64,000 bases of DNA from a virus. Every line of letters begins with the position of its first letter. Position 1 is the first letter of the stretch. The stretch spans positions 1 through 64,000 of the IMG/VR virus record IMGVR_UViG_3300018875_000004; one strand, 5' to 3'. Of the stretch, positions 1 through 13,427 are shown piece by piece. The notes under the pieces were generated by a model that was not told the origin of the DNA, searched no databases, and saw nothing but the letters and a program-made list of their open reading frames with translations. Position numbers and translations under genes: made by a program.

Positions 1-198
1 GTGCCTTTTACAGCCATTTCCGAGGGCTTCTCTGTGTTTGGATTCATGGATGCTGAAGTCGCCCTTAGCGATCGCGTAAACGATGGCATGGTGTCCTCGT
101 TCCAGGAGATGCTGCTGCAGGAGTCTCACAAGCCGATTCCAGCCGGCGCAGTTAAGGTCGTTACGCCACACGGTATTCGCACAAACATCATCGGGTAG
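1..198 (+). CDS. Partial hypothetical protein (C-terminal end)
   Basis: The reading frame is open from the first base and stops at a TAG at 196-198. Base 1 is GTG, but no ribosome binding site can be seen because the window starts there, so this is probably the last 65 residues of a gene beginning outside the window. No family was recognised. A GCCGTC/GACGGC hairpin follows the stop at about 203-217. The clamp gene lies 71 bp downstream on the same strand. Confidence 0.55.
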   Translation: MPFTAISEGFSVFGFMDAEVALSDRVNDGMVSSFQEMLLQESHKPIPAGAVKVVTPHGIRTNIIG

Positions 199-5592: not shown

Positions 5593-6426
5593 ATGCTTAA
5601 ACATTTAGAAGCCAGTGATTTGGATGCACTAATCAGTCAGCTCAAGAATACTTTTTCATTTGAAGATTGGAATAAGATACTTGTACTTTCAGATCAATTG
5701 ATAAAGTCGGTCGAAGTCATCCGGAATATATCAAAAATCACAGGTGTCCAGTTTGGTCAAGCCGAAAAAAGCCTGATGTATTATTATGGGTTTGCTTATA
5801 TGGCTGCCGGCACCGCTTATCAAAAGAAAGGCCTCTATGTTGAAGCAAGAGAGTGGATTCTCAAATACGGTGACTGGTCCTGGGTCGTTGATCCACAGTC
5901 GGAAGATTGCACCTGGATGGATTACTGGACACGTATCTCCGAAATCAATCTTGTCGTCATCGATCTCTTGATGGGCAAGCCTGATGCTTTGCGGCAGATC
6001 GTGGACTACATGTTCGCTCATCCGGAAGATGCTTTGGCTGGAATGATCACGATCCTTGAAGCTGCCAACCAAAACAACCTTAATGTCGATGCGGTCTTGG
6101 CAGAAATACCCTCTGACTTTTGGAAGAATGACGCCAGCGATGGCGTAGTCAACATGTCTTACCAGTACAAGTTCTTCTATCAGCTATCCCTATACGAACT
6201 GAAACGTAACTCGTTACATTTTAGTTTAGGTAACATCTTGCAAGCGATGAGATTAGCTGATAAAATGAAGAACGTGGAAGACTTTAGGGCATGTATTGAT
6301 GTCTACGAATCCCTTAAAGAGCAAGCAACTCCACAACAAGAGAAAGAATACAAACATATCTTAAAGGGAGCGATTAGACATGAAGAAATGGTTGCTGTCA
6401 GCATTGCTGGCATTCGGAGTACTTAG
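5593..6426 (+). CDS. TPR-like peptide receptor (RRNPP-like, putative)
   Basis: A 277-residue, almost fully helical protein with helix-pair periodicity typical of tetratricopeptide repeats, including an AYMAAGTAYQKKGLYVEA-like TPR segment near residues 65-85. It is followed, with a 47-bp overlap in another frame, by a gene for a short secreted pre-peptide. This arrangement is the signature of Rap-Phr, Alo and related peptide-sensing cassettes of Bacillota. It is shorter than Rap or AimR proteins (about 370-390 residues), and no N-terminal helix-turn-helix is evident, so it would act by binding a protein rather than DNA, or through another regulator. AGGAGGAG at 5574-5581 supports the ATG at 5593. 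It contains an internal promoter and a copy of the phage operator. Confidence 0.65.
   Translation: MLKHLEASDLDALISQLKNTFSFEDWNKILVLSDQLIKSVEVIRNISKITGVQFGQAEKSLMYYYGFAYMAAGTAYQKKGLYVEAREWILKYGDWSWVVDPQSEDCTWMDYWTRISEINLVVIDLLMGKPDALRQIVDYMFAHPEDALAGMITILEAANQNNLNVDAVLAEIPSDFWKNDASDGVVNMSYQYKFFYQLSLYELKRNSLHFSLGNILQAMRLADKMKNVEDFRACIDVYESLKEQATPQQEKEYKHILKGAIRHEEMVAVSIAGIRST
6205..6218. promoter_or_regulatory. Palindromic operator, copy 2 (inside receptor gene)
   Basis: CGTAACTCGTTACA matches the TGTAAYnnRTTACA consensus except for its first base. It lies 20 bp upstream of an internal promoter that faces the peptide gene, a position suited to control of peptide expression. Being inside coding sequence, chance cannot be excluded. 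Confidence 0.5.
6238..6266 (+). promoter_or_regulatory. Internal promoter for the peptide gene
   Basis: TTGCAA at 6238-6243 and TAAAAT at 6261-6266 with an optimal 17-bp spacer lie inside the receptor gene, about 115 bp upstream of the peptide start. Phr-type peptide genes are known to have their own promoter within the upstream receptor gene. Confidence 0.6.
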
Positions 6427-6535
6427 TGTAACTGCAGGTGCGGTAAGCGCTGCTGAACTGGAGAAGCCGGTTTCGCCAGTTGCTTCGGGTGAAGATCAAA
6501 TCATCAAACCTCTGAACTTTGGCTGGGGCGCATAA
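6380..6535 (+). CDS. Secreted pre-peptide (Phr/AimP/Alo-like signal precursor)
   Basis: A 51-residue protein too short for most gene finders. Residues 1-24 form a textbook signal peptide: KK near the N-terminus, a hydrophobic core LLSALLAFGVL and an AVSA cleavage site. A short pro-region follows, and the C-terminus ends in KPLNFGWGA. In Phr and Alo systems the mature signal is the last five to ten residues, which here would be around NFGWGA. AAAGGGAG at 6363-6370 gives a good ribosome binding site. It overlaps the receptor gene by 47 bp and has its own internal promoter. The exported peptide would be trimmed outside and re-imported by the host oligopeptide permease. The exact mature sequence is inference. 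Confidence 0.7.
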   Translation: MKKWLLSALLAFGVLSVTAGAVSAAELEKPVSPVASGEDQIIKPLNFGWGA

Positions 6536-6658
6536 ATAAAAAGAGTAGCCCCGGGTGCAACCAGGACTATTCAGACGCATCAAAATCATATTGGCATTCT
6601 CTTCAAAGAGGCGTATCTATCGGCGATTACCGTTAGAACAACAATAATATCTAAAAAA

Positions 6659-6690
6659 AGGCAAGGCTTACGAGTCTTGCCTTTTTTATT
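6659..6690 (+). terminator. Rho-independent terminator
   Basis: GGCAAGGCT (6660-6668) pairs with AGTCTTGCC (6673-6681), flanked by an A run before and TTTTTT after. It ends the receptor-peptide transcript; the 6536-6659 stretch before it contains no gene I can support. Confidence 0.85.
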
Positions 6691-8325: not shown

Positions 8326-8829
8326 ATGCCTAAAAATAAAGTATTAATAGATTCACGTAAGAAGGCGAATCTGACTATTGCTGAAGCAGCTCACCAGATC
8401 GGAATATCTTACGGAATGCTCGCCATGCTTGAAAGCGGGAGCCGGAAAGGCGGAGATGCCACAAAAACCAAGATAGCTAAATTCTACGGGAGAACTGTAG
8501 CTGAAATTTTTTTCAATGATGACAATCAAGATTTGCCAATCCAACTTGAAGACTTTATTATCTGCAAGAAGGATGGAAAAGATGCTCTTTTGAAAATTTT
8601 TATTGATGAGTATAATTCTATCGATAATGGAAATCCCACATATGGAGTCATAGACATACTTGCTTCTGAATCCACTTTCGAGGGAGTGTATACTTCGATT
8701 GAAAGACTACTGGAAGCAATTAATGATATCTATGATAAGATTGAGATTGTTAAGTCCGCAGAGCTTTTTATCGGCCGGAAGAACCTTAATTCAAGATTCG
8801 ACGGATATACACGAATAAGTGGAGGATGA
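8326..8829 (+). CDS. XRE-family helix-turn-helix regulator
   Basis: A 167-residue protein whose first 60 residues fit the Xre/Cro fold: a first helix around RKKANLTIAEAAHQIG, a recognition helix around SYGMLAMLESGSR and the closing helices ending near TVAEIFF. The C-terminal 100 residues are a separate helical domain without a recognised family, possibly for dimerisation or ligand sensing. Such proteins usually bind palindromic operators as dimers; it is therefore a candidate for the factor that reads the 14-bp palindrome found across the window, but nothing in the sequence proves this. It follows the 8044 gene by 3 bp within the same operon. Confidence 0.8.
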   Translation: MPKNKVLIDSRKKANLTIAEAAHQIGISYGMLAMLESGSRKGGDATKTKIAKFYGRTVAEIFFNDDNQDLPIQLEDFIICKKDGKDALLKIFIDEYNSIDNGNPTYGVIDILASESTFEGVYTSIERLLEAINDIYDKIEIVKSAELFIGRKNLNSRFDGYTRISGG

Positions 8830-10602: not shown

Positions 10603-10752
10603 GTGAAGAAGGAGGAAAAGAAGATGGCTATCCGCAAGGAAGACCTGATTGATACGAAGAAGAAACTCGATCGTAAGCAGCTGATTCGCTCTGTGACCAA
10701 GCAGGCGTGTCGCGAAAACGACGAAGGTCTTAGGAGGCTTTCGAAAAATTGA
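10603..10752 (+). CDS. Putative antitoxin partner of Doc
   Basis: A 49-residue basic protein from GTG 10603 (GGAGG at 10590-10594), or 42 residues from ATG 10624 behind AGGAGG at 10610-10615. It is charged and helical, with no clear Phd or AbrB fold. It lies directly before the Doc-like toxin, overlapping its TTG start by 4 bp, the usual order and coupling of antitoxin and toxin. The role is inferred from position; the protein itself was not recognised. Confidence 0.55.
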   Translation: MKKEEKKMAIRKEDLIDTKKKLDRKQLIRSVTKQACRENDEGLRRLSKN

Positions 10753-11147
10753 TTGAGCGGTTAACACCTGATGATATCAGGGACATTCATGACACTGCGC
10801 TGGAGCTTTATAACGGGCTTCCAGGCGAGAATGAGCCGGGGCTAATAGACTTTATTGCCGAAAAGCCTTTTATGGGTTTTGGCGACGAAGAATATTACCC
10901 CGGTTTATTTTTGAAGGCTGCCGTTTATATGGAAGGATTTGCTACACACCAGGTCTTCTGCGATGGTAATAAGCGAACCGGTTATTTGAGTGCGAAGGTC
11001 TTTCTTATGCTCAATGGCTACCATCTGAAGGTAACAGACGATGATCTATACAACACCACGATTGCCGTGGCCACGAAAGACATCGGTCTTCAGCAGTTGG
11101 CTGAATGGCTGGAGCAGAACTCCGTCGAAGAACCATTTGAATATTAG
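10749..11147 (+). CDS. doc: Doc-family toxin (Fic fold kinase)
   Basis: A 132-residue protein of the usual Doc length. The signature around residues 67-76 reads HQVFCDGNKR, followed by TGYLSAKVFLMLNGY, the conserved helix of the Doc group. In P1, Doc phosphorylates elongation factor Tu and stops translation until neutralised by its antitoxin. The histidine stands one residue further from the Phe than in P1 Doc, so the exact catalytic residue should be treated with care. It starts with TTG overlapping the antitoxin stop. On a phage it may stabilise a plasmid prophage or abort infection by competitors. Confidence 0.85.
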   Translation: MIERLTPDDIRDIHDTALELYNGLPGENEPGLIDFIAEKPFMGFGDEEYYPGLFLKAAVYMEGFATHQVFCDGNKRTGYLSAKVFLMLNGYHLKVTDDDLYNTTIAVATKDIGLQQLAEWLEQNSVEEPFEY

Positions 11148-11788: not shown

Positions 11789-12143
11789 TTCCAGAGATGA
11801 TGGCTTCTATGAATTATTCTGTCAGATAGAAAAAGAGAGAGATGATCTTCGAGACGGGATTCAGCGAATGAAAGAAGAATATGAGCGCATCCTTTCATCC
11901 GCACGTAATGATTTCACGGACCTTCGTTCGCAGCTGCAGGAGGCTCAGGATCTTGCCAACATGCGCTTGAAGAGTCTGGATGTAACCAATCAGTACTTGA
12001 ATGAAGCACGCGGGCAGATAAAGCTTGTTGCCTCCCATATTGCCAATCCTCGTCTGGATCCAGAGACCACCTTATCTATGTGCAGGACTCTTTTACAAAA
12101 ATGGACTACTCAACTGGAAGGCGGAAACAACAATGCAGGATAA
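11781..12143 (+). CDS. Coiled-coil hypothetical protein
   Basis: A 120-residue protein dominated by heptad-like Leu/Glu/Arg patterns from about residue 12 to 90, indicating a coiled coil. The start overlaps the previous gene by 8 bp and its end overlaps the next by 11 bp. No family was recognised. Confidence 0.65.
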   Translation: MSDSRDDGFYELFCQIEKERDDLRDGIQRMKEEYERILSSARNDFTDLRSQLQEAQDLANMRLKSLDVTNQYLNEARGQIKLVASHIANPRLDPETTLSMCRTLLQKWTTQLEGGNNNAG

Positions 12144-12948
12144 CGAAATCATCATCTTAGATGCCTGGATGCAGTTGGATCATGAAGGCAACTATATGAA
12201 TATGTATACGGATCGTAACGAAGCGATCACTAACCACCCCGATGATAATTTCATTCAAGGCTATACGCTTTCTGCCGGCTCTGATATGAACGACTTTATC
12301 GAGGACAACTTCGAGGATTTTTATCCGGAGCGCGGTGCCATGGACACGCTGCTGCGTAAGCATGATCTGATGCAGTATGTAAACGACATGACTGAGAGTC
12401 GTTGGACTCTGATTCATGTCGAGAACGGCATTCACACAGTCATGTTTCATGGGTTGCATTTGAACGCCGTCACACTGAACTTTGACGATGAATTGATGAA
12501 GATGAAATACCCTGGATGGAATAGTCCGTATGCTACAATTCGATGTCCTCATTGCCTTGCCTTATCTTCGGAGTTCAAATGGAACGTGGCCACATTGGTT
12601 GACTTCGACTCAGGCTATAATTTCACCCGTATTCAAAACATTGAAGAACACGAGCATGATACTGGATTTACTTGTCCGCAATGTTTTCGTGAATCGACAT
12701 CCAGCGAACTGAACTTCATTCCAGAAGGATATGTGCTGCTTAAATCCAACCCCGAAATTAAGATGTATCTTTCGGATGATGATGTGGTCGTCTATCTTCG
12801 TTTTGAAGGCGCGAAAGAATTGCTTAATACCAATGAGCCGTTTGCTTTTGCTATTGCCAGCGCCAAGGATATCTTCAGAGCCAACTACTTTGTCAAAAAG
12901 GAGGACTACCGTGGAGACGAATCCGGATCTGCAGCAGAAAATTCTTAA
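12133..12948 (+). CDS. Zinc-binding hypothetical protein
   Basis: A 271-residue acidic protein. CPHC near residue 138 and CPQC near 178 could form one zinc ribbon with a 36-residue insert. The first half holds an acidic region with DNFIQGYTL and FIEDNFEDFYPE segments. ATG 12133 is chosen (AAGGCGG upstream at 12118-12124) rather than the longer open frame from 12025, which would overlap the previous gene completely. No family was recognised. Confidence 0.65.
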   Translation: MQDNEIIILDAWMQLDHEGNYMNMYTDRNEAITNHPDDNFIQGYTLSAGSDMNDFIEDNFEDFYPERGAMDTLLRKHDLMQYVNDMTESRWTLIHVENGIHTVMFHGLHLNAVTLNFDDELMKMKYPGWNSPYATIRCPHCLALSSEFKWNVATLVDFDSGYNFTRIQNIEEHEHDTGFTCPQCFRESTSSELNFIPEGYVLLKSNPEIKMYLSDDDVVVYLRFEGAKELLNTNEPFAFAIASAKDIFRANYFVKKEDYRGDESGSAAENS

Positions 12949-13189
12949 TATTATACAGCTTAATTGCGATCATGGAGCTGTCGTAAAACTGGATGAGACT
13001 ATGTACGCTTACGGTGATTCCGATACGTTCGAGATCATTATGAGCGAAGTATGGGATGATTTTGGTGTGATTCTCTATGACCGGAATTACGAAAAAGACA
13101 TTGGCGATTTGAAGGTTTCTGAATTTATTGATCGAACAATTGAACTTATAAAGGAGCATCAAGCAAATGGAAAACCCGAGAAAGCTTGA
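12911..13189 (+). CDS. Small acyl-carrier-like protein (tentative)
   Basis: A 92-residue acidic protein from GTG 12911 behind AAGGAGGA (12899-12906). Its pattern resembles acyl carrier proteins: size, acidity, a DSDTFEIIM segment where ACPs have DSLDTVELVM, then DDFGV and a closing helix. The serine that would carry phosphopantetheine is present, but the following Leu is Asp. The similarity is by eye only, so a carrier function is not established. Confidence 0.5.
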   Translation: METNPDLQQKILNIIQLNCDHGAVVKLDETMYAYGDSDTFEIIMSEVWDDFGVILYDRNYEKDIGDLKVSEFIDRTIELIKEHQANGKPEKA

Positions 13190-13427
13190 AGACGTTATCG
13201 ACCAGCTGCTGGAAGCATCGACTGACGAGAAATTCAATGAGACTCTGAAGAAGATCCGCAGCCGTATTTTCTACACCCCACCTGAAGCGATGGGATTCCG
13301 TTGGGAGGAAGTGCAAGCTGCATTAACGAAAGCTGTGCCGGTTCCGATCCCAAATGATGAGGGATACAAGCTGGTCGGCATTTTCACCAATATGACAGAC
13401 GAACAAGTCCGAAAAGCTTTCGGCTAA
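13167..13427 (+). CDS. Small hypothetical protein
   Basis: An 86-residue charged protein, overlapping the preceding gene by 23 bp; AAGGAG at 13150-13155 precedes the ATG. The N-terminal half is helical; the C-terminus ends with a helix DEQVRKAFG. No family was recognised. Confidence 0.65.
   Translation: MENPRKLEDVIDQLLEASTDEKFNETLKKIRSRIFYTPPEAMGFRWEEVQAALTKAVPVPIPNDEGYKLVGIFTNMTDEQVRKAFG

Follow-up and report, generated by a model that had tools for sequence, protein, structure and literature searches.

A large Paenibacillus phage, probably a phage-plasmid, encodes what is very probably an HTH-less Alo-type pair of the RRNPPA superfamily, in which the gene for a short AloR-type TPR receptor is overlapped by a gene for a secreted AloP-type pro-peptide. 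The window we analyzed is the whole 64,000-nucleotide stretch taken from IMG/VR record IMGVR_UViG_3300018875_000004 (positions 1 to 64,000), and the cassette has counterparts in two related phages, the circular Paenibacillus urinalis element NZ_CP118109 and IMG/VR contig IMGVR_UViG_2609460327 (L022). The explanation we favor, with a probability of about 0.7, is that the cassette provides a peptide-sensing receptor that works via a protein partner, not DNA. Part of this explanation is a peptide near NFGWGA that is quite probably private to the phage. What is new is the HTH-less variant of Alo; peptide receptors as a category are already known.

A preliminary description of this DNA had proposed a 277-residue TPR receptor gene overlapping by 47 bp a 51-residue pre-peptide gene ending in NFGWGA, and both open reading frames, the overlap and the C-terminus are present as described (Table 1). 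The receptor cannot be longer from an ATG, GTG or TTG start, since none lies in frame between the previous stop codon and position 5593. Pfam, PHROGs and NCBIfam gave no significant match to it. Using tblastn, we found a full-length relative with 63.5% identity on the P. urinalis element, and AloR-like proteins of about 22-30% identity in Brevibacillus phage SecTim467 and on plasmids of Paenibacillus and Brevibacillus; two of the records with such matches carry the genus name Brevibacterium. The receptor aligns to the C-terminal TPR half (about 270 aa) of ~470-aa proteins that open with an HTH region; it is about 25% identical to HTH-bearing AloR members, with E values down to 2e-24, and homologous across the whole TPR half. 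We take the ~470-aa relatives to be AloR because of their receptor length, their HTH-TPR order, the overlapping pro-peptide, their taxonomic range and, in several cases, an adjacent spo0E gene. Judged by this homology, the window receptor is the TPR half of the AloR family without its HTH.

Structural modeling is consistent with this assignment. AlphaFold2 with a 72-sequence alignment returned the all-helical, TPR-like fold that had been anticipated, with 12 helices, a pLDDT of 89.4 and a pTM of 0.84; the single-sequence model was poor (pLDDT 59) and was left out of the analysis. The Foldseek neighbors of the model in the PDB are mainly TPR proteins, every one with E above 1e-3 and with Rap of pLS20 at rank 48, and the best viral structural neighbor is S5MC02 (E 3.6e-4, TM 0.66 by query). 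The earlier proposal that the receptor has no DNA-binding domain also holds: Pfam found no HTH family match in the receptor, and a search for a separate AloR N-half (HTH plus first TPRs), for which phage SecTim467 was the positive control (E 1.5e-64), found none in the source record, the P. urinalis element or the L022 contig. We therefore rejected a split receptor with its HTH half encoded elsewhere. Two further receptor families were rejected as well, Rap because there is no PF18801 (RapH_N) match in the source record, NZ_CP118109 or the L022 record, and AimR because there is neither an NF038310 match nor the N-terminal domain. Among the Rap-Phr, Alo and arbitrium layouts to which the cassette had been likened, it is the Alo comparison that stands.

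By its arrangement and its predicted product, the 51-aa gene is an AloP-type pro-peptide gene. The 47-bp overlap is the most frequent one in Alo loci, occurring in 30/59 AloR loci with a candidate peptide ORF. The mature peptide of AloP13, SHGRGG, was predicted by MS to be the C-terminal hexapeptide (PMC7425212), and NFGWGA, together with the C-terminal hexapeptides of the two homologs, TFGWGS and AFGWGS, are therefore the predicted mature forms here. An [HN]G near the C-terminus is present in 73/75 distinct Alo peptides of other loci (55/57 from HTH-bearing loci and 18/18 from short loci), and the three phages have FG there.

The preliminary description had suggested looking for homologous pairs in other phages, and both related phages retain a signal-peptide ORF with an FGWG[A/S] C-terminus. 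Neither of the two outcomes that it had named as telling against it, a receptor model lacking TPR repeats or a short gene not kept as a secreted peptide in related phages, was observed. In the P. urinalis element, a 277-aa HTH-less receptor with 64% identity is followed by the pro-peptide MKKLFLSALLTLGILSVTAGAVSASDVTKPVVVSNQEDAVITTMTFGWGS with an overlap of exactly 47 bp; L022 encodes a 277-aa HTH-less receptor with 59% identity and the pro-peptide MKKLFLSALLTLGVLSATAGAASAAECVEPVVYKEDTLVRPLAFGWGS, again with a 47 bp overlap. The window and the two other phages thus agree in the receptor, an overlap of 47 bp, an FGWG C-terminus and a palindrome at offset 613. Across the three pro-peptides the middle is divergent, and conservation is highest in the signal peptide and the five C-terminal residues. 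The receptors of P. urinalis and L022 diverge with a dN/dS of about 0.10. Viral and genome scans with the window receptor alone as the query returned zero matches; L022 was reached by a search with an alignment of the window receptor and its P. urinalis ortholog, and further scans of other viral contigs found no HTH-less AloR.

Table 1. Features of the cassette and of related elements. Positions are those of the window unless another record is named.
Feature	Position	Strand	Basis
Receptor gene, HTH-less short AloR-type TPR protein, 277 aa	5593..6426	+	tblastn, orthologs, AlphaFold2, dN/dS, tree
Phage-wide palindrome copy GTAACTCGTTAC inside receptor gene, putative operator	6206..6217	.	over-representation; conserved offset
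Putative internal promoter for peptide gene, TTGCAA-17-TAAAAT, TG before -10	6238..6266	+	-10 invariant in three phages
Ribosome-binding site AAAGGGAG of peptide gene	6363..6370	+	sequence; identical in three phages
Pro-peptide gene, AloP type, 51 aa, MKKWLLSALLAFGVLSVTAGAVSAAELEKPVSPVASGEDQIIKPLNFGWGA	6380..6535	+	47-bp overlap with receptor gene
Probable Sec signal peptide, residues 1-24, ...AVSA/AE	6380..6451	+	hydrophobic core and A-x-A-type site read from sequence
Predicted mature hexapeptide NFGWGA	6515..6532	+	invariant C-terminal FGWG; AloP13 precedent
Probable bidirectional terminator AAAAAAGGCAAG...CTTGCCTTTTTT, closes cassette	6654..6688	.	read from sequence; loop exceeds the limit of the scan
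Palindrome GTAAYNNRTTAC sites in window (12-13), examples	1658, 6206, 16973, 20363, 27098, 29627, 30641, 37140, 47932		
Flagellin and CsrA gene pairs	L020 (NZ_CP118109) 12050-13349; L152 9224-10396; L153 19093-20218		

Short receptors of this kind also occur outside phages. In a survey of 400 Paenibacillaceae genomes, 159 had a match at E 1e-25 or better. The open frames around the best matches mostly run for about 265-330 codons, which leaves no room for the HTH form. A candidate peptide ORF sits at the receptor end in 27 of the 31 loci that were fetched, mostly with an overlap of 44 or 47 bp. AloR-AloP pairs with a short, HTH-less receptor are thus not phage-specific but a common feature of Paenibacillus chromosomes, and the window receptor belongs to this sister HTH-less subfamily, not to AloR as published. 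The preliminary suggestion of a new branch thus survives in that an HTH-less branch exists, and fails in that this branch is a widespread chromosomal AloR subfamily, not one special to the phage. In a 65-row tree, the short receptors fall on one side of a branch supported at 97/94 with 20 rows, or at 87/7 when the long-branched pPlas3 row is included (21 short rows). Support is 100/99 for the grouping of the HTH-bearing receptors and 100/100 for a clade of the three phage receptors, whose stem is long (1.47 changes per column). The best tree makes all HTH-less receptors monophyletic, with weak support once the pPlas3 row is counted, and a single HTH loss common to the phage branch and the other short receptors is likely. 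A tree constrained to hold the 18 short receptors from outside the phages together, to the exclusion of the phage branch, could not be rejected (p-AU 0.236), and the phage branch may therefore have lost its HTH separately.

The literature holds every Alo receptor to carry an HTH (PMC7425212), names Rap proteins as the sole RRNPPA members without one (PMC9765709) and adds one Anoxybacter subfamily to the HTH-less RRNPPA (PMC12700828). In searchable papers, supplementary tables aside, we found no description of HTH-less AloR-AloP pairs. The AloR-like genes of L122 and L129 occupy frames of 346-414 codons, branch between the short and long groups and are possible HTH-loss intermediates. On P. larvae pPLP3 (L009, 1432-2914), AloR is present as two overlapping genes, an N-half and a TPR half, followed by the peptide gene, in a split or frameshifted arrangement. 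A stand-alone XRE-type HTH gene lies near several AloR loci, short ones and HTH-bearing ones (L121, L132, L149, L150 and L007; also L068, L070, L071, L077, L085, L088 and L097); because it occurs near some HTH-bearing loci too, it is not specific evidence of a partner.

Rap-Phr systems are frequent on mobile elements, and the window cassette resembles those of Bacillus in pairing a peptide receptor that has no HTH with a secreted peptide encoded downstream. Moreover, Rap is carried by Bacillus members of the window phage's own phage-plasmid family. The window receptor nevertheless differs from Rap in lacking the RapH_N N-terminal module, and its sequence is that of AloR. What the window does have is a TPR-like C-terminal domain and an adjacent gene for a predicted secreted short pro-peptide, as in RRNPPA systems. 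With AloR-AloP (Voichek et al. 2020, PMC7425212) it shares receptor homology, a receptor gene followed immediately by an overlapping peptide gene with a 47-bp overlap, a signal peptide and a glycine-rich C-terminal hexapeptide. Unlike AloR, however, the phage receptor has no N-terminal HTH and first TPRs (277 versus about 470 aa), the peptide core is FGWG instead of [HN]G, which is usual but no part of the published definition, and the cassette is phage-borne with no spo0E gene found. Brevibacillus phage SecTim467 (KT151957) also carries a phage-borne AloR, 28% identical over the shared half, with an annotated short gene that overlaps the AloR end by 46 bp, but its AloR is full-length (474 aa, with the HTH region) and adjoins a spo0E gene. 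The arbitrium system AimR-AimP of SPbeta-group phages likewise combines a phage-borne TPR receptor with a secreted peptide, and AloR and AimR fall in one structural clan (PMC12700828). In contrast to AimR, whose N-terminal domain binds DNA, the window receptor has neither a match to the AimR model nor a DNA-binding N-terminus, and we found no aimX-like evidence in the window phage.

In the mechanism we propose, whose steps are drawn from characterized Alo and Rap systems, the 51-aa pro-peptide would leave the cell through Sec and be cut down to a C-terminal hexapeptide near NFGWGA, which the oligopeptide permease would bring back in for binding within the receptor's TPR groove. The receptor would bind and control a phage or host regulator, and the peptide, as in Rap-Phr, would turn this binding on or off. 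For AloP13, secretion of the peptide, its maturation to a hexapeptide and a transcriptional effect are documented (PMC7425212). Since the receptor has no DNA-binding domain, a protein partner is its most likely target, and by analogy we think it probable that the receptor acts through one. The proposed arrangement would most closely match Rap of pLS20 controlling Rco, where Rap directly binds this repressor and peptide binding releases it (PMC7430634). RapH_N, the target-contacting module of Rap, is absent here, and any partner would therefore be held by the TPR body itself. This absence counts against the explanation, as do the departure of FGWG from the [HN]G core, the lack of a PDB match below E 1e-3 and the missing cassette in the P. 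rhizovicinus relative. The odds that the target is a phage regulator or a host developmental regulator are roughly equal, and the output may be lysogeny maintenance, lysis timing or host sporulation.

The regulatory sequences within the receptor gene bear on the choice between these targets. A palindrome had been described as phage-wide and as having a copy inside the receptor gene, and both points hold: there are 13 sites with up to one mismatch in the window against 0.88 expected, with 0/100 shuffles as high. Many copies sit directly 3' of a -10-like box, an operator-like placement. The receptor-gene copy recurs at a matching codon offset in P. urinalis and in L022 (L003:6614 and L022:5614; AATGTAATGAGTTACATT). 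The palindrome also occurs 19 times in about 148 kb of the P. urinalis element and directly after dnaN in P. rhizovicinus, and none was found in 29-kb stretches of two Bacillus relatives. The proposed internal promoter sequence is present, but the match alone is at chance level, as the window has 3 such sites against 2.6 in shuffles. Synonymous codon identity is raised over the palindrome and promoter (6193-6268) when the window is compared with each relative (11/15 vs 50/119, p = 0.028, and 13/15 vs 46/112, p = 0.0015), and is raised over the gene overlap too (p = 0.006 in each comparison), with the element boundaries picked after the profile was seen; the two comparisons are not independent, because the window is common to both and the partners are related. 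To judge from its enrichment and positional conservation, the palindrome inside the receptor gene is genuine and conserved.

These observations would fit an arbitrium-like switch, one version of the partner mechanism, in which the receptor binds the protein that recognizes the GTAAYNNRTTAC operators and the peptide alters phage-wide repression, including that of its own gene via the internal copy. The strong over-representation of the palindrome, its placement 3' of -10-like boxes, the copy at a matching codon in three phages and the synonymous conservation over palindrome and promoter all speak for such a switch. However, the internal copy lies upstream of the putative peptide promoter and not over it, unlike many other copies, and the nearby HTH gene at 8326-8829 has no match in three P. 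urinalis stretches (about 148 kb), on which ground we rejected its product as the partner. We consider the switch conceivable but doubtful. Rap proteins act on Spo0F or ComA, and we entertain with similar reserve a hijacking of host development, the other version of the partner mechanism, in which the receptor, like Rap, would target phosphorelay or sporulation regulators of the host, with an effect that depends on phage density. The Rap-family receptors in Bacillus relatives of the phage-plasmid family point this way, as do the spo0E gene adjoining the full-length AloR of phage SecTim467 and the fact that in P. polymyxa a Spo0E-like gene is the target of Alo13, which bears an HTH (PMC7425212). 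Yet no Spo0E-like gene was found in the source record or NZ_CP118109, and the receptor has no RapH_N-like module.

Two other readings deny the cassette a sensing role, and we regard both as very improbable. The receptor could be a relic, an AloR shortened by loss of its HTH that now serves only to carry the peptide gene, as might be suspected from the statement that all Alo receptors carry an HTH (PMC7425212) and from the long stem of the phage branch. But the start point and length are equal in three phages, a broad group of HTH-less genomic relatives exists, most with an intact peptide gene, and the purifying selection indicated by the low dN/dS between two of the phage receptors largely refutes this reading. 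The short gene could instead encode an antimicrobial or cell-envelope peptide whose overlap with the receptor is incidental, a reading to which NCBIfam lends sub-threshold matches to a bacteriocin-like family (E 0.13 and 0.018). Against it, the 47-bp overlap and the C-terminal glycine-rich motif are common to dozens of AloP, and the best-conserved parts of the phage peptides are the signal peptide and the C-terminal end.

A broad group of HTH-less Alo receptors would show that peptide receptors working without DNA had a further origin, in another family. The occurrence of short AloR and Rap across one ~200-kb phage-plasmid family suggests repeated recruitment of protein-acting density-sensing receptors. 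Tentatively, we speculate that the HTH-less AloR subfamily could be an independent invention of protein-acting, Rap-like receptors that phage-plasmids recruit according to host lineage, Rap in Bacillus and short AloR in Paenibacillus; with its private FGWG dialect and a peptide gene wired into the phage operator regulon, the cassette would then be a non-DNA-binding counterpart of arbitrium. Because the predicted peptide has six residues, the idea is cheaply testable.

The source record is 96 kb long and syntenic with 110.8-208 kb of the P. urinalis element, a circular phage-plasmid of 214,846 bp; 79/112 ORFs of the record match that element, on a mechanical ORF list that includes antisense frames. 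L022 is a 206-kb contig. The source record, which encodes virion structural proteins, DnaB, primase and a sigma-like factor, is probably part of a larger phage-plasmid of about 200 kb, and one virion protein used as a query led to seven plasmid records of 200-229 kb from Paenibacillus and Bacillus. In P. rhizovicinus NZ_CP048288, a relative within this family, neither an AloR match nor RapH_N was found, so the cassette is accessory. Rap is present in 5/5 Bacillus relatives (RapH_N over the cut-off). A Phr-like peptide ORF adjoins the Rap gene in the B. halotolerans relative, and in B. licheniformis NZ_CP014843 a 41-aa signal-peptide-like ORF overlaps the end of the Rap gene. In the two Bacillus records examined for this, Rap is encoded in broadly the same region, past dnaN and the DnaA-like gene, though not at the exact aloR position. 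Near Rap-Phr, Bacillus members encode an LXG (T7SS) polymorphic toxin with a YezG-type immunity gene (L152 13192-15720; L153 14161-16608). In both Paenibacillus and Bacillus relatives, a flagellin gene adjoins a carbon storage regulator (CsrA) gene. The window itself carries a Fic/Doc family gene at 10749-11147, which matches a Doc-like toxin PHROG at E 9.5e-27.
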